A DNA stretch of 64,000 nt from Pegea sp. RAD2-039. Lineage: Eukaryota > Chordata > Thaliacea > Salpida > Salpidae. How positions within the stretch are numbered: the first letter of the stretch is position 1; each line of letters opens with the position of its first letter. Both the position numbers and the translations under genes were made by a program. The DNA lies in contig JAQGEQ010000363.1 in NCBI GenBank assembly GCA_034620365.1, positions 868,001 to 932,000 of the forward strand. The letters run 5' to 3'. Below are positions 21,246-59,100 of this stretch, one piece after another. Below the pieces are notes generated by a model that was given only the letters and a program-made list of their open reading frames with translations, was not told the DNA's origin and made no database searches.

Positions 21246-24200
21246 ATGAAATTTGAATATTATTTTCTTCTGCTCTTTTTGATCCATTATAATCATGGGT
21301 TCCCGAAATTTGGAGTAAAAGTATCAAAGAGATCAGCTGACATTTCAAAACTAGGAATGTCTGATGTAGCTGTGAGTAAACATTTTACTGTCGGTTCTAA
21401 AAAACTGAAAAATAAATTCAAGATTCTAAAAGGTTTATTGAAAGATTTAAATATATGTTTCTCTCTAATTAATTTGTTTCCACTTAATTGCCAAAAACGA
21501 GAACAAAGCTGTGAAAGTATGATTTCCACTTCGCATTTAGTTAATTTTCTATAACTTGTATTATTTCATGAAAGCTAAAGTTATCTGAACAACTTTATCA
21601 TATAGTTTTCTGAAAGGTGTTTGTAGTTTTATTTATCTTTACCTTGCTTGAACTTGTATGCACCCTAAATAGATAAATTATTAAAATGCTTTTAACGCAT
21701 TTAAAAAGTAAAGTTCATTCATTTATAGAATGCTTTTATAATCTTTGAATAGAAAACTTTGAAAACCACCCAAAAAAGTTTTTTTTTTGAATGAATTACT
21801 TTACACTATCTCACCATAGAATTTGAAAATAGCATTAAAGCAACAACATTTCAAGTATTTTTATTTCAAAGGTATACAGACTTTTGTTGTAACGTTTACA
21901 AGAGCCTTACAATAGTTTGCTCTGTAAAAGATTAAAACTTCAAATTAAATTTTGATCGATAATTAGTTTTGACAAACCAAAGTTTTAAAAAGTTTTTAAA
22001 ATCTATTATCTAAAATACAAAAATAATTTGAAATTTTCTTAAGTAAATGAAATGAAAAGTTATCAATTGTACTCATAAGACTTTGCTTTTAGTTTTTTGT
22101 GTTATCAATCATTTACAATAAGATGAGTTGAAGTATAAAAGATTTTTCATTTGTTTTTAAAAGCTTACAAAGAAAACTTATATAACTTTTTTGTGGATTT
22201 TAGAACGTTTGTCTGTGACCCTCTAAAAACTTCCACAAGAAATAAATTCCGTTTTGATAAACTAAGTTCAAACAACTGATCAATTTTCATTAAAAAAAGG
22301 ATAACAATTGTGAAAGCAATTTAAAAAAGTTTAGACAGCTTAAATATCTAAAAATCGACTTCTGCTGCAGAATATCTGTAGAAGATTAAATACCATATAA
22401 GCTTAGTATTTGATCTTGAATAAAGTTAAGATTGATGAGTTCAATAGAAATCTTCACTTCAGTCAGATTGTAAAAAGCTTAATTGTTGTGGAAAAAATCT
22501 TCAATTTATCTATTTCTTTAAAGAGACATTTAAAGTTGAAAAAAATTTTCATAATAAGTTTTTCTCTTTTGTTTAAATCAAAAGATTTAAGTTATAACAA
22601 GTCATCTTGGATCAAATCAATAAAACACAGAGAGTAAAATACTCGATTAAAATTCAGTTGGGTTGTCAGACACTTTAAATTGTAAAAACTCTTCAACAAT
22701 ACCAAGCCATGAATAGACTGTATTAAAAACAATATTTGTTTTTGGTGACCAATGGTGCTTGGAATTTAATAAGCTCTTGCTCAGTTAGTAGTACACAGCC
22801 TTACAGAAAAATGACAATTGTAAAAACTATGCTATCAGACTTCAAATTCCAACAATTGATAAAAGAAGGTCTTTACAGGAGTATCTCAACAAATATGGAT
22901 ATTTATCAAAATCAAAAACACGAGAGATTAAAGTTGGAGGATACACTGATGCACGGAGCTTTCAAAGATCAATCAAGTAAGAAGATCATATGATCATACA
23001 CATGATTACAAATCTATTTGTAGGAAGATGCAGAGAACTTTAGGATTAATCCCAACTGGTAAGCTTGATGTTGAGACGATGTCTATGATTGTAAAACCAA
23101 GATGCGGAGTTGAAGATACAGTTGGAGTCTCACAGTTGATGGAAGAAGGTAAAGATGAAGATTAGGATCACAGATTTGATTACTAATAAATACAGGGAAT
23201 CACGCGAAGAGCAAATTTCGAAACACAAAATCCAGACGTCGTCAGCGAAAGAAAGAACGAAAACGGAGAAAAGATCATCAAAACCACAAACATCTGCTGT
23301 TAGAACAAGAAGAAGCAAAAAGTCGCCAAAAACGATATAATCTGGAAGGTAGATACGATCTGAAGATTTTCAGCTTGATGGAATTGTGTCTTTGTAGGAA
23401 ATCGCTGGAGAAGAAACAACCTAACTTACTTCATCGAGAACTTTACTCCTGACATGACTCGGAAGCAGGTTGAAGACTCAATTGAAGAGTAAGAGATCAT
23501 GTGATATTTCCCGCCATTCGCACTAATCGATGTGAAAATGATTTAAAATGAGTTTAAATCAAAATCGAGTCGCAAATGACGTCATAAATACATTTCTACG
23601 TCATCAGAGCGTTTCAACAGTGGGCTCGGGTATCAACTTTGACCTTTGCGCGTGTATATGACTCCCAATCAGCAGATATAACTATTCGATTTGGTGCTCG
23701 TAGCCATGGCGACTACTATCCATTTGATGGACCAAGTAAGTCACGTGGTCAGTCCACTACTTGACAAACTGGTCATTGGCTGACAGGTGGGACTCTGGCT
23801 CACGCTTTCTTTCCCGAAAATGGTCAAACACATTTTGATGAAGAAGAGAAGTTTGATTATCTTGATGGTTACGGTGAGTGACGTCATAAATTACAATGAC
23901 GTCATCATTTCTTCTCAAGGTGTAAACTTGATGCTGGTTGCGGCCCACGAATTTGGTCATGCGCTTGGTCTGGCCCACTCAAACGCCCCAAATTCACTAA
24001 TGGCCCCTATTTACTATGGTTACATTCCCGACTATCAGCTAGATATTGATGACGTCAAAGCAATTCAGCAATTATACGGTGAAAAGCGCGATAAAGCGAA
24101 TTAGAGGGCGTCAATTTAAACTTGTTTCAGGTAAAAACCCGACCATATTGACCACTGAAGCACCTACTACTGAACCAACTACTGAAATGGTGATCAAAAC

Positions 24201-25121
24201 ACCTGAGAACGCCCTGGACATATGTGAAGATGGAATTGGATTTGATGCGGCATTTTTTGGTATTTTTTATTCGAAATTTTGGATCTGCAAACTTCGGATT
24301 TTTAGATTTGAAGCGCAAGGAGCTCGTCGCTTTCGAAGGAAAATGGTTTTGGCGTTTCGATAGTAACGGTGATTACCATGGTTACCCAAAACTAATCGAA
24401 GACCACTGGCAGGGACTCCAGTCAAATGTGGACGCGGCCGCTTATTCCAGATACACAGGATTCAGTTACATCTTCAGAGGTACTTCTTCTTTAATCTTCA
24501 ACCATTAATCTTTATGACGTCATAGGAAGCGAGATTTATCGATTTCGAGACTACAAATTAGACCAAGACTTTCCGCGACCCTTATCCAGTCTAGGACTGC
24601 CCAACAATGTGGACGCTGCCATGCAGTGGACAGGTGACGGACTGATGTACGTGTTCAAACGTAAGTGTGATGCAATCAACTATACACGTGACCAAGTATG
24701 TGGTTGCTAGGCAACAATTTTTTCCGCTTCAATGAACATCAACAATACGATGGAATCCGAAGATTTGCTCATCGACACATTAAAAAGAACTGGATTGGGG
24801 TCCCGGACAAACCTGATGGTGCTATTCAATGGAAGGATGGTTAGTGACGGTTGTTAAGGCTTGTTTAGTTGTTAGGTGACGCGTTTTGGTTGATAGGATC
24901 GACTTATTTCTTTAAGGATGATCAAGTCTTCAGATTTGTAGACACAAGGCTGGAAGTTGATAAAAGATATCCGAAAGATTTGAAAAGATACTTTATTCGA
25001 TGTCCAGAACAAAAATGTAAGTTGATCTTCATCTCTTACGGAGTTTTCATGATCTTTGTGACTTTGTGCAGTTACTCCGTTGAGATTTCGGAAGAATCGA
25101 CGCTTCAGACATGATCACTAG
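21246..25121 (+). CDS. matrix metalloprotease A, MMP19/28-like, furin-activated
   Basis: Fourteen coding exons (21246-21371, 22879-22976, 23024-23148, 23196-23348, 23398-23488, 23608-23735, 23787-23873, 23920-24078, 24131-24259, 24306-24479, 24526-24660, 24711-24839, 24897-25016, 25072-25121) give 1704 nt, 567 aa. Order: signal peptide (about 1-18), peptidoglycan-binding-like propeptide, cysteine switch P-R-C-G-V-E-D (100-106), a very basic linker ending in furin site R-Q-K-R (160-163), catalytic domain with [12 protein letters not shown] (His279, 283, 289; Glu280) and Met-turn near M297, a Thr-rich hinge, four hemopexin blades between Cys354 and Cys547, and a basic tail. It should be secreted, activated in the Golgi, and cut extracellular proteins. 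The active-site surroundings look closest to MMP19. After a 1.5-kb first intron the rest are mostly 46-57 nt. Confidence 0.93.
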
Positions 25122-25400
25122 ATGTCAGTCTTCACTTACTAGTTGATGTATACTTTGTACAATATTTGCTATTCACAATTTCAATTTTCTCGACTTTTTT
25201 GGCTTTTATTGGTTTTGGCTTTATCAGAATTTGGTTAAATTGAGTTTCATAATAAATTAAAAAAAGATTTATTCATAAAGAGAGAGTTGAATATAGAAGA
25301 TGTTTGTTCAGTGCATAGTTAGAATAATTAAAAGCTGTAAAAATTATTCTATAGTCGATAACACAAAAGACTTTAAACAATAATTGAAATAATTTCTCTT

Positions 25401-28091
25401 TTAATTAATGTCTTCTTTGAACTGAACATCTTTAAAATATTTAGTTGAAATAAATCCGTGTTCATCTCCAGGACATAAAACAACTCCATTCAATGAAACA
25501 TAAAACTTCAAACCATCTAAAAAAAGATTTTGCTACAAATTCTTACAGCAATTCTCATATCAAAACCTTTCAAAGATTTCTCTAAATCAATATAAATGAA
25601 TAAGTCACATGTTGACCGCATGCCACTGATGACGTCATTTGAAACACCAGGTAGTGATGTAGTCAGGTGAATATGGTTTCGCTAAAATGTAAATAAACTT
25701 TAAGAGAAATATTTTGCTCAAATGTAATAGTATCTTTCAACTTGTCTTCGGTGTAATCCTTTTTCTGAAATACTTTTCCAAAACTTTTTATAAGTTCCAT
25801 GTACAAGTGTCGAGTAAAGTTGAAAGTCCTTAATTTCTTGTAAATTCAATTTTTCAACCTACGAAGAGGTTTGGTTAATAATTGTTTATTGACGATATAA
25901 TAGTTAACTTGTTAATGTGATTTAATTCATAAAACAATTTTATCACATAATTAGAAATAAATATTAAGTTTTTTTTATTATATAAGAAAATATTTGATAT
26001 TAAATAAGAGAATTGATCAAAAACCTGTTTAAATATTTGATATGATTTCAACACAAGTGAAATTGCCCACAAAAACCAAAAACAACTTTTCATTGGTAAA
26101 AATTTTCACGTAGTAAAATGTTCAGCAACGAATTTGTTGTTTGAGTTTTAATTCATAAAATTTTACCTTAATACTATGACCTTGTAAAGCACGAATCTTT
26201 TTTTTGCCATTTTCATTTGTGATGATTTCAAATCGTTTTTTATCATTTAAATCAACTATTTTGTGAATAACTTCATCTGTTGCGTGCAATGTATTTTTAA
26301 AATGAGCTTGTTGAACTATATCATCAATTAATAGAAATCCATCTACAAATATATTCGACTAATTAAAATGAAACAAATTATCATTCACAAACCGTCGCCA
26401 ACTTCAAATCCAAACTTATTGTGACGTAGGGCAGCCGTGAGCGCTTTCGAAATCCGAACTTCATGTTTATTTAAACTCTTTTTCTTTAGTAATGATCTGT
26501 AGAAGATTTACAAAAGACCTATTTGCTGATCAATTCTTTAAATAAGTTTTTCATTATTTTATTGGATTTTAGAAAAATAACTTTTTAGTGTTTAAGGTTC
26601 ATCACCCTTAATGATTCAAACCCGGGATTTTTGAAGCTAATATCAAAAGTCCTATCAAGATCAAATAATAAAAAAAATTCGTGAAATACTTCAGAATTGA
26701 AGAAGTTTCCTGAAGTTCTTTTTCTGTAACATAAAGTTGTTCAAACTGAAAAACCAACAAATCAAGACTCACTTTCATTTTCATTTTTCATCACTTTTTC
26801 AGATTTTTTATCTTTCTGATCTTTTATGACATCAACAAGAGTCCTGCTAGAGCCAGAAGACCCAAAAACTGAATCATATCTTCGAGACTTATCCCAAACT
26901 ATTTCTTGATTGTATTTAAAATACTGAATTCGGTGTTGAGGGATTGCTAAAGTTGAAGCATCCACTGATGAAAGATCTGAGTCCCAATCAAAAAGATCAA
27001 AAGATGATTCGACGGTTCCAAGAAATCGATCCAAGTATCCAACAACAACTGCATCCACATCCAACTGATCATCCCATTTGAATCTGTTGAAGATAAGGAT
27101 CAGATCACACAAGAGTCCTAAAAGATTTCTGCAGAGAAATTTTCTAATCCAAAGAAAATTTTGATGACAATTGTTCATCTTATTTTTAGCAAAATACTTT
27201 TAATAAACTCAAAAGTTAGTTCTTAAAAATATAAAAAAATAACCTTTTTAACCTAAATTAATTTATCTAAATTGTTCATCAAATAAAACTTCTATTACCT
27301 GTTGATAACATCTCTTGTAGTTTTCATTGAAGGTTTTTTACTTGATGAAAATTCATTTAAATTGTTTGTTTCTGAAAATTTAAACTTTAAAAGTAATATA
27401 TCACATATATGACATTTTTTAGTTTAGAGTTAAAGTACAAGAAAGCATTTGAGAACTTTATTTTGTAAAAATTACATTTTGTGCTTTAAGAATAATCATT
27501 TTTTAATTTGTTAAAATTTCACAATAGTTTTTGAACTATGAATAAATTCATGTACAATTCAATATACCACTTTTAATATTATTCATAGAATTTCCATTTT
27601 CTTTGAAATGTTTCTCATATACAGCTTTATAAGATTCCCAAATAAATTCTATTTGTTGAGAAATTGGAACAGAATGTTTTGGAAAGTTTGTTTCAACAAA
27701 AACTTCCATCAACTCTTTTGCTAAATCATCACTGTGGTTTGGAAATGAATATTCCATAAAATTTTCACGACCTTGTGATAAGAAGTCAAAAGTTAAAAAG
27801 TGGATTCCTCAAAATACAATTGATTTAATAATCATTTAAATTGAATGAAAAAGAAATCAACAAAATCTTGATTTAGTCAAAAAAAATTTTGTACAAAAAA
27901 ATTAGAAAAATTTTAAGAATCAGAACTTCACCATTTATCCAAAAGTCGATACAACATTTAGAGTTGTGAAAATCTTTCAATGAAAGTTTTGAAGTTTGAT
28001 TCTGCAAAGGTTGAAAATAGACAATTTGACAAATTGCTTTTTGATTCTTTTCAAAATCTTGAATCAAACTTTTCAAGTCATCACTACTCAT
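25401..28091 (-). CDS. MJ1316 domain fused to KptA/Tpt1 RNA 2'-phosphotransferase
   Basis: Exons in reading order: 28091-27932, 27771-27568, 27371-27299, 27083-26795, 26746-26606, 26483-26393, 26342-26167, 25858-25742, 25681-25567, 25516-25401; 1482 nt, 493 aa. Residues 1-120 are an unrecognised domain. About 140-235 is an MJ1316 (DUF504) RNA-end-recognition domain: T-R-D-V-I-N-R-F-K-W-D, V-V-G-Y-L-D-R-F-L-G, I-P-Q-H-R-I-Q-Y-F, V-W-D-K-S-R-R. The C-terminal 200 residues are a Tpt1 matching human TRPT1 end to end, with L-R-H, R-A-L-Q-G-H-S, L-V-H-G-T, H-L-T and S-G-M-R-S. Tpt1 moves a 2'-phosphate from RNA to NAD+. The exon with L-R-H has no in-frame start, so it needs upstream exons, which favours one fused gene. 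The junction is uncertain: an alternative joins 26794-to-26690 in another frame to an acceptor at 26496. Both keep the frame open. Confidence 0.85.
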
Positions 28092-30661: not shown

Positions 30662-33573
30662 ATGGTTCGCGTTTTTTATTTGGAAACTATATTTTTGATA
30701 ATATGCTCTGTATCTGTAAAAGCTTTTCCAAAGGCAGACCAAAGTAAATTTGCAAAGCGTGCAGCGGACAAAGTTCCTCAAATTAGTCTGAAGAGTGCTG
30801 CAGTAAGTTCTTCGTATTTTTAGGAGGATTAATACAATAGAAATAAAACGAAATATTTTACAAAGTAATCGTTTTATGTTAAACTTATCAAAGTTTTTAA
30901 TTACCTATTAGCTGTTATTAGTAACTGTAATCGATTAGAATAATTATTAATCAATTTTATTTCTTTTTTTATGTTAACAATTCTTTATTTTTATAATTTA
31001 ACTAAAGTGGACACACTCGCAAACATTACTAATTTTTTCAGACTTATCTAGCGAACTTTGGTTACCTTTCAAAGTCACAAACAAAATCTGTAACAAATGG
31101 AGGATTACTGGATGCACGAACCTTTGCTGAATCTATCAGGTTTTACAAAATCTTTAAAATAAATATCAAAAACGTTAAAATTATTTGGCAGTAAACTGCA
31201 ACTGATGTATGGATTAGAGCCAACCGGAAGATTAGATGATGAAACAATGAAGATGATGGCTAAGCCTCGGTGTGGAGTAGAGGATACTGCTGGAGTATCT
31301 CAGATGATGAATGAAGGTTTGTGAGTTTGAAAACTTAATTTAGTAAAATTTAAGAATATCTGTAACCAGATCATCATATTGGGAGCAAATTTGATAATAA
31401 AAAAGCGAGAAAGAGGTATAACAAAAGAAGAAGGATGAGAAACTCTCGTCGAAGACCAAGATCAATTGATGAAGATCAAGCGAAGAGTAGAAGCAAACGT
31501 TACAGCTTAACTGGTTCGAATTTCAATTAAGCTTTTTAATGTAAAAAAATCTTGATTTTCTAAATATCGAAAATAGATTCTGTTTGGAGTAAAAAGAATT
31601 TGGTTTACAAAATACGCAACTATACTCCTGATATGTCTCGTTCTCAAGTTGATAAATCGATGGCTGAGTGAGTTGAAATGTTGGTTTTTATATCGATTAA
31701 CTTGATAAGTTTATCTAATTACTTTAAACATCTTTTAAAACCAACAAATTTCCAGTGCATTGAAATTATGGAGTGATGTTTCAAAGTTGACATTTACAAA
31801 AGCAGAGGGTGACCAAGATGGCGATATTAATATCAGCTTTGGAAGTGGAAACCATGGTGATGGGTATCCATTTGATGGTCGCGGTAATTTGAAAAAAAAA
31901 ACTAAAAAATTCATTCGTCAACAATAGTAGCAATACAATCAAGTCACAAAAGATTTGCAAAATCATTTCTTTGCTATTTAATTCATCAAATGGAATTTAA
32001 TCCATTATAATTCTCTGTTTATTTTGGGGGCTTTTAAAATGAGTTCATCACAAATTTTTTTATACAAATATAGACCTGAACCTTAAATATGATTATTTTT
32101 TAGGAAATATCTTGGCTCATGCTTTCTTCCCAGAAAATGGAGAAGCTCACTTTGATGAAGATGAACAATTTGATTATGAAGATGGGGAAGGTATTTTATA
32201 TTCATTTTCTTTAATTATTTTGAAAACTTTTTTGTGTTCAGGTGTAAATCTGCGGATTGTTGCTGCGCATGAGTTTGGACATTCTTTAGGATTAGCTCAT
32301 TCCAATGTTGCTAACTCTTTAATGGCTCCAGTGTACCAAGGATATGTAAAAGATTATGAGCTCCATCAAGATGATATAACAGCAATTCAACAGCTTTATG
32401 GTTAGATATTTCAAAGAATCTTCAAACTTTTTTCTATTAACTTTTGAAAATATTTTTTTTCAAAACTTCAGGTAAAATTAAACGAAGAGAAGAAATTGAT
32501 CCTACTACTTCGCCCTACACTGTTCCCACCACATCAGTAGCTCCAAAACCTGGTGTTGATATTTGTACAAAAGAAACATCATTCGATGCTGCTTTTTATG
32601 GTAACTGCTAACGTATTTGAGACAAATAAAATCTGAATTTAGTGTTTTATAGATGACAAGGTCTCTTCTTTGTATGCTTTCAAAGGAAAGCAGTTCTGGA
32701 AGTTTGACAAAGAAGGAAGATTCAATGGACATCCTCAACTAATCAGTGATTATTGGCGAGAACTTAGAGGAAATATTGATGCAGTCGCTCATTCTAAAAA
32801 TACTGAGAGAACTTATTTCTTTAAAGGTATGCGAAACTAAAGAGACAACATCGTTGATTGATGATTTCTAATTTTATAAATTTTGATTTTTTGACAAATT
32901 TTGTGTTTAATTGAAATAAATTGTTTTTAGGTGATAAGATCTACAGATATCACAAGTTCAACTTGGAAAGGGGTTTCCCTATGCCCTTGTCCTCTTTAAA
33001 ACTACCTAAAAACGTTGATGCTGCATTTCAATGGAACCTAGATGGACTTTTTTACGTTTTTAAAAGTAAGTTTTGCTTTCTATATGAATATCAAATTTAC
33101 TTCTTAAAACAATTTTATGATTTTTCGAATAATCTTTTGTAGAAAAGAATTACTTCAGATTCGATGAATATCAACAATATGATGGCCGTAAAAGATATTC
33201 GCATAGGAGAATAGGAAGACATTGGCTAGGAGTTCCCAACAATTTAGATGGTGCAATTCAATGGGGAGACGGTATAGTGTTTAATATTGAGATGAATTTT
33301 CAATTATTTATAGTTTTAATTTTATACATTTGTTTTGTAGAGACTCATTTGTTTAAAGACAACCAAATATACAAATTTGATAACAAGAAATTAGAAGTTG
33401 CAAGGAACTATCCAAAGAATTTAATGAAATACTTTATTCGCTGCCCAAACTCAAAAAGTAATTCATATTTGATATTTTTTAAAGTTTTTATTATAAATCA
33501 TCAACTTTTTCTAGGTCAACCTCTAAAATTTAGAAAGAGGAGATCACGTAATCAAACAAGCAGAAAGTCTTAA
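30662..33573 (+). CDS. matrix metalloprotease B, MMP19/28-like, paralogue of A
   Basis: Fourteen coding exons (30662-30802, 31042-31139, 31192-31316, 31370-31513, 31577-31667, 31756-31883, 32104-32190, 32242-32400, 32472-32600, 32653-32826, 32931-33065, 33143-33271, 33341-33457, 33515-33573) give 1716 nt, 571 aa. Architecture equals MMP A: signal peptide, propeptide, switch P-R-C-G-V-E-D, basic linker with R-S-K-R furin site, [18 protein letters not shown] Met-turn, hinge with T-S-P and T-T-S runs, hemopexin blades bounded by D-I-C and F-I-R-C, and a Lys/Arg-rich tail. G-D-K-I-Y-R-Y in blade 2 parallels G-D-K-V-W-R-Y of human MMP19. Ten of its 14 coding exons have exactly the length of those of A, so the two are duplicates. 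They lie in the same orientation on either side of the KptA gene. Exons are more AT-rich than in A. Confidence 0.93.
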
Positions 33574-43500: not shown

Positions 43501-44151
43501 AGCATTTAGAAGTCAGTAAACGTCAGTGATTATTCTGTTTCAAATTTTTATCATTTTTAAGTGATATGAAATATCAAGTTATTTAAAAAATAGCTTTCAC
43601 CTTTAAACTTTCAGTTTAATACTTTTTCTTACTGTTTCAGCCTCATATAACAATAGAGTTAAATGAAAAATGAGAAAAAAGTTAGATCAAATCACGTTTC
43701 TAGAATGAATTTAGTAGTAATCAAAAAATTTTTTGGTTCGTATTTTTTCTATAAGTATTTGATTAGTTGTTATACAATAAGTATTCAAAGTGTTAGACCA
43801 TATGAGGACTTTTGTTCAAAGTTTTGTTTACTTATAGCTTGTCTATAAAGGTTTATAAATATTTATAAAATTTCCATTTTTGTAGTTTTGAAAATAAGAT
43901 ATAAAAGAACAAATCAAATTATGGAGTTTTATGGATATATTTCAAGATTTAAAAAGTACAGATATGAAATTTTAAATAAAATGTTTATTGACTCAATGAC
44001 ATACTTAGCTTCTATTCTTATTTCTTTGTGGTTTATTTATTCTTAAATACTGCAGGTAAGTTCAAAAGTTGATGAAGCTTTAGTTATTTTCAGCATCTTT
44101 TTAAGAGTTTTGTTGTAAAAGTGGTTATTTGATTGAATTGTTGCATCTAAT
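40586..44151. other. intergenic region upstream of IPPK
   Basis: AT-rich. A GC-richer block at about 41660-41800 (with CAGTCGACTCAGCACTAC and ATGCCGCGG) resembles repeat sequence but has no second copy here. Near the IPPK start, a GTAAGT donor at 44056 and CAG at 44091-44093 could bound a 38-nt 5' UTR intron. That is shorter than any intron seen in the genes of this window. Confidence 0.35.
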
Positions 44152-45393
44152 ATGGAAGTATCTTGTAAATGGAGATATTGTGGTGAAGGAAACAACAACA
44201 TCGTCTTTACAGATGACGATTCTTCTCATATCTTGCGAGTCCCGAAAATATTTAAGAAACGAAATTCGTTAAAAGACTCTAATCGAAATGACTTTGTTTT
44301 AAAAGAAGCGAAATTTCTTGAGAAATCAGTTTATCCATTACTCAAAGACGTTTCTGTGTATTATAGACTGCAAAGTATTCCTATTAGTAGTGAAATTTGG
44401 GAAAGCTTGCAGCAGAATTCACGTGATTCTGTTGCTGAAACAGAGTTTGCAATTCTGATGCCAAATTATTGCTTGGCCCCACTTTTTTTTGGATGTAGAG
44501 CTTCAAGAATCAGTAGATCACCCGTCGTGTGTGTAGAGTTTCGACCAAAGTCTTGTTATATGCCTGATATAAGTGATACTGGCACTGGTGGTTGCTGCTA
44601 TTTTTGTATGACTCGATTACAAGCAGAAGAAGTGGAAAATAAGTCTCAGACAAAGTACTGTCCTTTTGATCTATACTCTGGATCAAGTAGACGAATTAAA
44701 AGAGCTATCAATCATTTAATAGCTCATCCACAACGCTATTTTGCTCTTTCGATTGATAACAAACTGGTTTATTCCAACAAAAACTCGACAAACAGCTGTG
44801 AAAACTCAGCTTCATTTAATGATATTGTTAAAGATGCTGTAGGTGACCGGAATACCTTCATCAATGTGGTCTGTAACGCTTTGCTTGCTCCAGTTGTTGC
44901 CCATGATTGTGGATCGTACCCCAGACGCTCTCATTGTCGAATATCAGATGATCCGCTCTTGGAAGAAGATGAGAGTCCAACTAAAAGTTATGGTCGAAGT
45001 ATTCTCAGTTTCATGCATTCAATCCATTCAATGAGAAATGTTCCATTAACTGAAATAATTGAGATAAATACTGAGATGAAAGCAAATAAGCAGTCCAAGC
45101 AATTTAAGGACAGTTTGAAGAAGCAGAAACTGAAAAACTTCCAACTCTCTAGAATCTTTAACTGCTGCTCGCTCATGGTGTCATTTCAAAAATTAGAATC
45201 CAATGCAAAAAGTAAAAAGTCACAAGATGAAGATTATCAAAACTATTTTAAAGTTGGAGATGGTTTAGGCAATGAATATATAGTCTGCATGGCTTTAATT
45301 GATCTTTATAAGGAGAACTCACCTGAAAAAGTTGTCAAGTTTTGCAAACGAGAACAAGATGTCATCAACTTTTATCAACAAAATTACTACTAA
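44152..45393 (+). CDS. IPPK: inositol-pentakisphosphate 2-kinase
   Basis: Intronless 413-residue frame. It aligns with IPPK/IPK1 (human 491 aa): W-R-Y-C-G-E-G-N near residue 7-14 (the nucleotide-binding glycine loop), V-C-V-E-F-R-P-K at about 124-131 (family E-I-K-P-K), the zinc-binding-type C-Y-F-C-M region, and K-Y-C-P-F-D-L-Y-S-G at about 165-174, nearly identical to human K-Y-C-P-L-D-L-Y-S-G. The enzyme adds the 2-phosphate to InsP5 to make InsP6 (phytate), in nucleus and cytosol. The final family motif D-L-D-L-K-P appears here as I-D-L-Y-K-E, a clear departure at a catalytic or metal-binding position. The protein is shorter than human in the middle and at the C-terminus. Loss of all CDS introns among intron-rich neighbours could mean retroposition, but no poly-A tail is seen. 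Confidence 0.88.
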   Translation: MEVSCKWRYCGEGNNNIVFTDDDSSHILRVPKIFKKRNSLKDSNRNDFVLKEAKFLEKSVYPLLKDVSVYYRLQSIPISSEIWESLQQNSRDSVAETEFAILMPNYCLAPLFFGCRASRISRSPVVCVEFRPKSCYMPDISDTGTGGCCYFCMTRLQAEEVENKSQTKYCPFDLYSGSSRRIKRAINHLIAHPQRYFALSIDNKLVYSNKNSTNSCENSASFNDIVKDAVGDRNTFINVVCNALLAPVVAHDCGSYPRRSHCRISDDPLLEEDESPTKSYGRSILSFMHSIHSMRNVPLTEIIEINTEMKANKQSKQFKDSLKKQKLKNFQLSRIFNCCSLMVSFQKLESNAKSKKSQDEDYQNYFKVGDGLGNEYIVCMALIDLYKENSPEKVVKFCKREQDVINFYQQNYY

Positions 45394-56100: not shown

Positions 56101-59100
56101 ATTAAAGTAACTTGAACAAATTTTTCTTTACTTTTTCGCCACTATAATGCCCCGCCTAAAAGCAGAAAAAAAGAAAAAAGTTTTGAAAGTCTTGCAGAAA
56201 AATCTTTCTTACATTTACTCATGTTTTCAAGCAAGTAATTTACCAGTGAGAGAATAGTTGTGGATGAACGTGGAAGAAATTTAAATGCTAAATATGGTCA
56301 TAAAGTTTAGCTGAAAATATTTGAATTGCTTTTATTATCTATAGATCAAAATGTTGAGTTTTTTTGATCTTATGTTATACAGGTTGAGTAGTTAAGTACA
56401 TGTAGTTAGTGATTTATAATCAAACAGTTTTCAAGTGCTTGGAATTGATTGTTAAGGTCTTTAAACTTTTTCTTTTCAGTTTTCATATATTTCTAAAACT
56501 TTATTATTTCAGCTTATGTGATGATATAATCCTAATATTGAGTCAGTCTATTTTTATATTTCTTTTTGTGAATTATTCAAACATTTTAACAAATTTATTT
56601 TAACTTTAAACAGTTTTTATTTTATTCATTATTAGAATTTTAAAAATCTTTGAAAGAAAACAGTTTTCAATCTCACATCTGGATTTGTTTGTCTTCAAAT
56701 TTATATTTAGAATATTTATTTGAATATGTTGATGCTTTGTAAATGAACGTTGAAAGATTTATCTCTAGTAAACTAATATTATAAAAACTGATGGTTTTGT
56801 TATATTTATAGCTCTCTTTTATTAACAGATTTATAATAAAGCTTTTATATTTTCTAGTTTTTATTACTTTGATAATTTTGTGGATAAATTTTGTTTATTA
56901 AGTTCAATGTTTAGCTTCGAATGTTTATAAAAGTTAAAAGTAATTCTGCAATTTTAGTTTATTTCCAAATTTTATAGTTTTTATATTTAAATTTAATTAT
57001 TGTAATAAAACTTTTTTCGTTTCTTATTTAAGTTTGTTAAAAATTATTTACTAAAAAATTGTTCAATATTTTTATTATTTATTTTTTTGAACTTGATAAT
57101 TATTTTTGAATCATTTTATTTCGAGGCCATTTTTGATAAAAGCCATTTTGTGTTTTGCAGGTCTTGTGAAAGTAGAGAGTTCTTGCAAATCTAAACTAAG
57201 ACATCATCAAGTCTCTGCTTCGTTTACTGCTGCTGATTTGATCAAACCTAAACTTCAACCCCAAAATACTTTGTTCAAAAGACCTAAAGATTTTATTAAA
57301 CAAGTTGAGAAGAGTGAAGAAGATACAAAATCCAGCCTCAGCAGATCCGATTCTGTTGAATACAAGGGATCACCTTTCATTTATCCTTCTAAACCAAAGA
57401 CTCCTCTCATAGACTTTCAGTCAAATCGGAAAATAACTTCACTTCGTTTAATTGGACTTCTGCTGAGTGATAAATTAGCTGATGAAAAAGAAGTTGTTAA
57501 AGACTCAATTAAAGATTTGAAAGATAAGGTATCTGAAGATCAAAGTAGTCTTCGTCCTCCTGGAGCTTATAGAAAGTTTTTGAGTAATTCAATCTTACCG
57601 AGTGAGTCTTTATTGAAAACAAGTGATTTGAACAAAATTGTTCAAGAATCTACTGAAAAAAGTGAATCGAAATCTATTGAAGTAGCTGAGTCAGCAGAAG
57701 AAGAATCTAATTTACAAATTGCTGATTTAAAAGATTCTGATAAAATATTTGAACAATCTCAATCAACTGAAGAATCTCTTAAAAAGGTCGAGTCACAATC
57801 AAGTGAAGCAAATTCATCTGCTGAAGAATCTGAGTTACTTGTAGAAGATTCCACCCCAGTAGTAGAGGAATCAGTAAACCAACTAGCTTTAGATTCATCT
57901 GAAACCTTCAAAGAACCTATTTCAGTGGAATTGAAACCAAATCAGCGTGTCCGTGAATCACTCTCTGACAGTGAAGTTCTTACAATCATGAATTCATCTT
58001 TAAAAGTATCAACAAAACAAGCAGAGACCTCTCTATCAGCATTCATCTCAAATCATGAAACTAACTCCGTAAGATGAAGATCATTTTATGCGAATCTTTC
58101 AACTGATCTTTTTATCTTTTTAGTGTACCACATCTAAGTCTAGTTTTGTGGACATGTTTTCTTGCCCGATTTCACCAGGTTTGTTTTTCAACTATTTTTT
58201 TGTTACATCTCTAATTGAATAAAATTGTATTCAGCTAAAACTGAAACGGAAGTTACTAAAGATGACATCAAAGTTGATGTAACATCCACGAGAAGAAGAA
58301 GAAGAAACAGACGCGCTTTGAAAGAAGAAGAAGATCAAAAGATGACAAACCCATCAGTAGTCTCAGACTTGAAACAGTTGGAAGAGAAAGAGAATTTTGA
58401 AGGTTGAATTTTGAGTAGATGTAGCTCACTTACAGATTAATTGAAAACTGTTTTTGTATGTTTAGGATCTCAATATTTGATTTCCAACTTTAATTTGAAG
58501 AAGTCTTCTGATGGTTTGTTCATTTCTACATCAAAAATCTTCTTTTTGAATCTTAAATTTTATTGCAGAAGACAAAAATAAAGATTCAACTGATGACGTC
58601 ATACAAGAAGATCACTCTGTAGTTACTGATGACGTTATACAAGAAGATGACGTTGTAGTTACTGATGACGTTATACAAGAAGATCACTCTGTAGTTACTG
58701 ATGACGTCATACAAGAAGATGTAGTTACTGATGACGTCATACAAGAAGATAGTAGTTACTGATGACGTCATACAAGAAGATGACGTTGTAGTTACTGATG
58801 ACGTTATACAAGAAGATCACTCTGTAGTTACTGATGACGTCATACAAGATGAAGTTATAGTTATTGATGACGTCATACAAGACGATGGCGTTGTAGTTAC
58901 TGATGACGTCATACAAGAAGATGACTTTGTAGTTACTGATGACGTCATACAAGAAGATGAAGTTGTAGTTACTGATGACGTCACACCAACTAATGGTGGC
59001 ACTCAAGCTGTTGTTACCGTTAAAGCTACTAGTGACGTCACGCCAGTTATTAGTATAACTTCTACAAATGACGTCACTGTGACTGATGACGTCACTGACA

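Follow-up and report, generated by a model that had tools for sequence, protein, structure and literature searches.

On the minus strand of a 64,000-nucleotide stretch of the genome of the tunicate Pegea sp. RAD2-039 (the window, whose positions are used below), we identified a candidate gene that runs from an ATG at 28091 to a stop codon ending at 25401 and comprises nine exons and an uncertain linker. These are the coordinates proposed in an earlier sequence-only reading of the window, and the two domains that it named lie where it had placed them. The gene has a clean start: an in-frame TAA lies 9 nt upstream of ATG 28091, and a tttcag (AG acceptor) stands 9 nt before the same ATG, which would fit either a splice acceptor in the 5′ untranslated region or a spliced-leader acceptor. 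The exons of the candidate gene model are as follows.

27932..28091, minus strand: exon 1, with ATG 28091 and the N-terminal region; donor gtgaag
27568..27771, minus strand: exon 2, the remaining N-terminal region (residues about 54–121), without a Pfam or PDB match
27299..27371, minus strand: exon 3, a linker and the first MJ1316 residues (MKTTRDVINR)
26773..27083, minus strand: exon 4, the core of the MJ1316 domain and a charged tail; terminal donor GTGAGT
26690..26723, minus strand: candidate 34-nt linker exon, one among several possible joins, without statistical support of its own
26393..26496, minus strand: exon 5, the start of the Tpt1 domain (R285 and H286); acceptor at 26496 or 26483; without an in-frame ATG
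26167..26342, minus strand: exon 6, Tpt1 domain with K330 and R332
25742..25858, minus strand: exon 7, Tpt1 domain with an HGT motif
25567..25681, minus strand: exon 8, Tpt1 domain with R394 and HIHL
25401..25516, minus strand: exon 9, the end of Tpt1 and the stop codon

An alternative donor for exon 4 is possible at 26795, and AATAAA signals follow exon 9 at 25273 and 25210. Our working model of 469 amino acids joins exon 4 to the 34-nt exon (26723–26690) and then to the acceptor at 26496.

Two full-length domains in the gene model

The MJ1316 domain, which had been claimed for the middle of the protein, occupies residues 137–211 of the 469-amino-acid model and covers the whole PF04457 profile (positions 1–75 of 75; E = 1.8e-25); exon 4 alone matches the same profile at E = 5.6e-21. 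The claim of a full C-terminal Tpt1 with its conserved arginine and histidine motifs is borne out as well, with PTS_2-RNA/Tpt1 at residues 272–448 and PF01885 matched nearly from end to end (positions 2–177 of 177; E = 3.6e-51). Both domains score far beyond the Pfam cut-offs, and nothing besides these two was found in the model at a Pfam E value of up to 1. For the N-terminal region (residues 1–136), neither Pfam nor the PDB yielded a match at E up to 10.

The Tpt1 part aligns lengthwise with solved Tpt1 enzymes, and like TRPT1, Tpt1 and KptA themselves it is full-length; the best-scoring PDB chain, 7yw3_A, shares 44% identity with it over 187 aligned residues. The 13 matched PDB Tpt1 chains are 177–253 amino acids long and three plasmid KptA proteins are 183–197 amino acids long, whereas in the window protein about 270 residues that include MJ1316 precede Tpt1. 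Among the PDB chains, 6e3a is presumably Clostridium thermocellum Tpt1 (CthTpt1), an assignment that we make from its residue numbering. The Arg-His-Arg-Arg tetrad of the family is intact in the window protein as R285, H286, R332 and R394, corresponding to R18, H19, R68 and R121 of CthTpt1 in the numbering given in PMC6333775, according to which the tetrad contacts the 2′-PO4 junction. Two further contacts from the same source do not align: Tyr80 falls on Q349, and Arg139 falls on M414, which adjoins R415. As a member of this family, the encoded Tpt1 would be predicted to carry out NAD+-dependent transfer of the 2′-phosphate.

For MJ1316, a sequence search found no solved relative. Recognition of RNA ends (2′,3′-cyclic phosphate) is stated as a property of the domain in PMC6514570; that the domain recognizes cyclic-phosphate ends is a prediction.

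The linker between the domains

Ten splice paths across the linker are open, and they yield proteins of 446, 451, 457, 460, 469 (twice), 480, 481, 487 and 488 amino acids. The exons had been read as joining in phase into 493 amino acids; open joins do exist, but there are ten rather than one, and none of them (446–488 amino acids) has that length. A model with no linker exon, from donor 26773 directly to acceptor 26483, was out of frame and was rejected. When the linker intron was shuffled, an open path as good as the real one arose from donor 26773 to acceptor 26496 in 122 of 2000 cases, a comparison that used the best-scoring path between these two sites (exon 26688–26622, weakest site 4.2) and not the 34-nt exon, the weakest splice site of which scores 2.9. 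Some open path was present in 2000 of 2000 shuffles because the shuffled stretch does not take in the one-intron path from 26795 to 26483. Given this outcome, a match in phase is by itself weak evidence. Our working model retains the 34-nt exon because a T-rich tract that looks intronic runs through the longer candidates; this choice is a judgement, contrary to the splice score, and the linker join is not unique.

Partners of MJ1316 in bacteria and in known relatives

A scan of genome contigs with a three-row MJ1316 alignment (the window, Calothrix and Nonomuraea) recovered 62 loci, all of them bacterial by title. Pfam was run on 43 hand-picked proteins from these loci (the other 19 were omitted), and the partner domains were 2H in 38, EEP in 33 and poly(A)-polymerase in 31; the ten families listed for these 43 proteins at a threshold of E = 0.001 did not include PTS_2-RNA. 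The sample leans towards EEP-type proteins, to which two rows of the three-row query belong, and it is wholly bacterial, although archaeal MJ1316 proteins exist (two control genomes).

Bacterial proteins that combine MJ1316, EEP, 2H and poly(A)-polymerase (from cyanobacteria, Myxococcota and Actinomycetota) carry MJ1316 in front of RNA-end enzymes within a single polypeptide, as the window model does. They share W-D, P-x-H-R and W-D residues with exon 4, and seven columns are invariant in a 36-row MJ1316 alignment of exon 4 with 35 of the 62 bacterial loci. They differ from the window protein in their partners, with no PTS_2-RNA among the 43 on one side and no EEP, 2H or poly(A)-polymerase match on the other. 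The window gene thus fits the known habit of MJ1316, with a partner unseen in the bacterial sample.

We also searched the flanks of the 62 loci (at most 8 kb on each side, shorter where a contig ended) for KptA, using tblastn with four queries at E up to 0.01, a search that detected three control loci. KptA lay near MJ1316 at one of the 62, in Nostoc carneum (L049, 12909–13451), about 1.9 kb away and on the opposite strand; because this sole neighbour is on the opposite strand, it does not amount to an MJ1316–KptA operon in bacteria. Single-sequence MJ1316 scans of viral contigs and genome contigs gave no match, nor did a tblastn search of phages with MJ1316, and tblastn against plasmids at E up to 1 matched 2 of 72,556 records (E = 2e-5 and 0.3). 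A Calothrix plasmid typed as conjugative (L040:4995-7970) encodes a 991-amino-acid protein with MJ1316, EEP, 2H and poly(A)-polymerase that is annotated only as thpR.

Among eukaryotic relatives, the vertebrate protein LENG9 combines CCCH with MJ1316, whereas the window gene has no CCCH or AKAP7/2H match (Pfam E up to 1); LENG9 carries a 2H domain and is not known to contain Tpt1. A fusion of a C12orf65-like release factor with MJ1316 likewise joins the domain to an RNA-related enzyme (PMC6514570), with a release-factor peptidyl hydrolase domain as the partner in place of Tpt1. That paper also reports diverse eukaryotic fusions of MJ1316 to RNA-repair domains, so that such fusions form a known class, in which the pairing with Tpt1 may be new. 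Our literature search returned no report that pairs MJ1316 with KptA, and an earlier description is possible, for example in Burroughs and Aravind 2016; it also returned nothing on DUF504, on LENG9 with a 2H phosphoesterase or on Ciona Tpt1 in tRNA splicing. Should Burroughs and Aravind 2016 already list the fusion, it would be less novel but no less useful as a clue.

Matches to RNA-repair genes elsewhere in the genome

The genome contains matches to RtcB, RLIG1, a CLP1-type kinase and RTC cyclase, which are parts of both ligation routes, as well as AKAP7-type 2H matches at two places. Neither a T4-Rnl1/Trl1-type ligase nor a CNPase-type cyclic phosphodiesterase was matched in the genome, in searches for which the controls were silent too, so that absence is not implied. 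Two CLP1_P-type matches of near-equal score, separated by about 3.6 kb on the same strand (contig C249:1668896-1673098), are perhaps a tandem duplication.

One gene or two, and what the product may do

In the 105.7-Mb assembly, the MJ1316 and Tpt1 families each match a single locus, the one described here, and a search with the 469-amino-acid protein at E up to 1 gave nine matches, all at this locus; the genome search ranks the best candidates exon by exon, and a badly split second copy could escape it. The two sets of exons lie on the same strand with a gap of 276 nt between them. The Tpt1 exons supply no start codon, the first in-frame methionine of the domain being residue 414, and of the three ATGs in the gap (26732, 26602 and 26554) none reaches the Tpt1 frame with zero, one or two GT–AG introns of at least 35 nt, which argues against a separate Tpt1 cistron resolved by a spliced leader. 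With no usable start in the gap, single detected copies, a common strand, 276-nt spacing and open joins, the best reading is that a single gene most likely encodes MJ1316 and Tpt1, probably in one polypeptide. The fusion proposed from the sequence-only reading therefore stands on copy number, spacing and the want of a start between the parts, and draws little from the phase of the linker.

That reading had also held that the Tpt1 part has no in-frame start of its own. This is correct for the Tpt1 exons and the gap, but seven ATGs within exon 4 (27072, 27060, 27054, 26877, 26791, 26784 and 26778) can be joined to the Tpt1 frame by one splice, 26784 for instance through donor 26690 and acceptor 26496, and a Tpt1-only form could be started from one of them. 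The locus might accordingly hold two genes or isoforms, the first carrying MJ1316 and stopping after exon 4, the second a Tpt1 transcript that begins within or near that exon. An AATAAA at 26563, in the linker intron, would suit such an arrangement and makes an MJ1316-only isoform conceivable; AATAAA or ATTAAA occurs about six times per kb of the minus strand, and the linker intron is no denser in them than the rest of this AT-rich window. The one spliced leader of Ciona, moreover, serves both single genes and the resolution of operons (PMC7986045). We nevertheless regard two genes or isoforms as improbable: any such start sits inside a coding exon of MJ1316, a GTGAGT donor closes exon 4 and the acceptor at 26496 is the best-scoring one in the region. 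It is hardly credible that misassembly or a faulty gene model alone has brought the two exon sets together; the assembly is in 387 contigs, but the parts lie close together within one of them (C21), the introns on either side of the linker gap are short (50–308 nt) and neither part was detected a second time.

A further alternative accepts the fusion and doubts its link to ligation junctions: MJ1316 would tether RNA or tRNA in general, with Tpt1 acting mainly as an RNA ADP-ribosyltransferase or in other NAD+ chemistry. Human TRPT1 and a bacterial KptA do ADP-ribosylate 5′-phosphorylated RNA ends, as reported in PMC6582358, and no Trl1-type ligase was detected here (with the silent control noted above). 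A 2026 review (PMC13247085) likewise describes parts of the yeast-like, 2′-phosphate-making ligation route in mammals, with no evidence that it operates in complete form in metazoans. Against this, MJ1316 is accompanied by RNA-end enzymes in the bacterial sample, and the window protein retains in full the tetrad for contact with the 2′-PO4 junction. On balance, we consider a tether with ADP-ribosylation as its main chemistry rather unlikely.

The reading that we favour, and hold to be probable, is a tunicate gene in which an uncharacterized N-terminal region, MJ1316 and a complete, tetrad-bearing C-terminal Tpt1 tether together the animal's only detected copies of the two domains, with a predicted role in end recognition and 2′-phosphate removal. 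The coupling of these two activities, which had been suggested before, is plausible. Judging from the two families, MJ1316 would bring the enzyme to RNA ends, or to junctions derived from 2′,3′-cyclic-phosphate ends, and Tpt1 would use NAD+ to clear the 2′-phosphate left after the cyclic ends are opened and resealed, in a repair route that would run in parallel to RtcB.

In animals, tRNA halves are joined by RtcB, and no 2′-phosphate is left behind; a partner domain that in other proteins keeps company with enzymes of RNA-end repair offers a clue to the pathway of animal Tpt1. More tentatively, a sensor of cyclic-phosphate ends within the animal's only Tpt1 might be a direct physical link that ties animal Tpt1 to the resealing of 2′,3′-cyclic breaks in parallel to RtcB, a proposal that we think possible but somewhat doubtful. 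As a domain-fusion clue the finding is credible and useful; as an enzyme, the protein is a prediction.

Spliced leader and other features of the genome and window

Ciona has a 16-nt spliced leader, ATTCTATTTGAATAAG (PMC7986045), which occurs 681 times in the genome at up to one mismatch, against 29 occurrences of the reversed control. On contig C4 it lies in a tandem array with a unit of about 199 bp, compared with a repeat unit of 264 bp for the spliced leader of C. intestinalis in the same source, and gtaagt follows in all four copies read. GT follows only one of the three scattered copies read, and some of the matches are thus not leader genes. A weak GH6 match in the genome (27.5 bits, with the cut-off at 27) fits a tunicate.

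Within the window, two apparent matrix-metalloprotease/hemopexin-like genes, recognized by eye from translations, flank the MJ1316–Tpt1 candidate at 23784–25114 and 33133–33570 on the plus strand. At 44137–45390, also on the plus strand, a single open frame of 418 amino acids resembles inositol-pentakisphosphate 2-kinase (by eye). The palindrome TGACGTCA occurs 22 times in the window against 0.38 expected under a second-order model, and one copy (tgacgtca) is found inside coding exon 8 of Tpt1. A tandem array at 58589–58983, with 11.4 copies of a 36-bp unit, contains the same palindrome and is partly open in a forward frame, where it encodes repeated TDDVIQ-type motifs.
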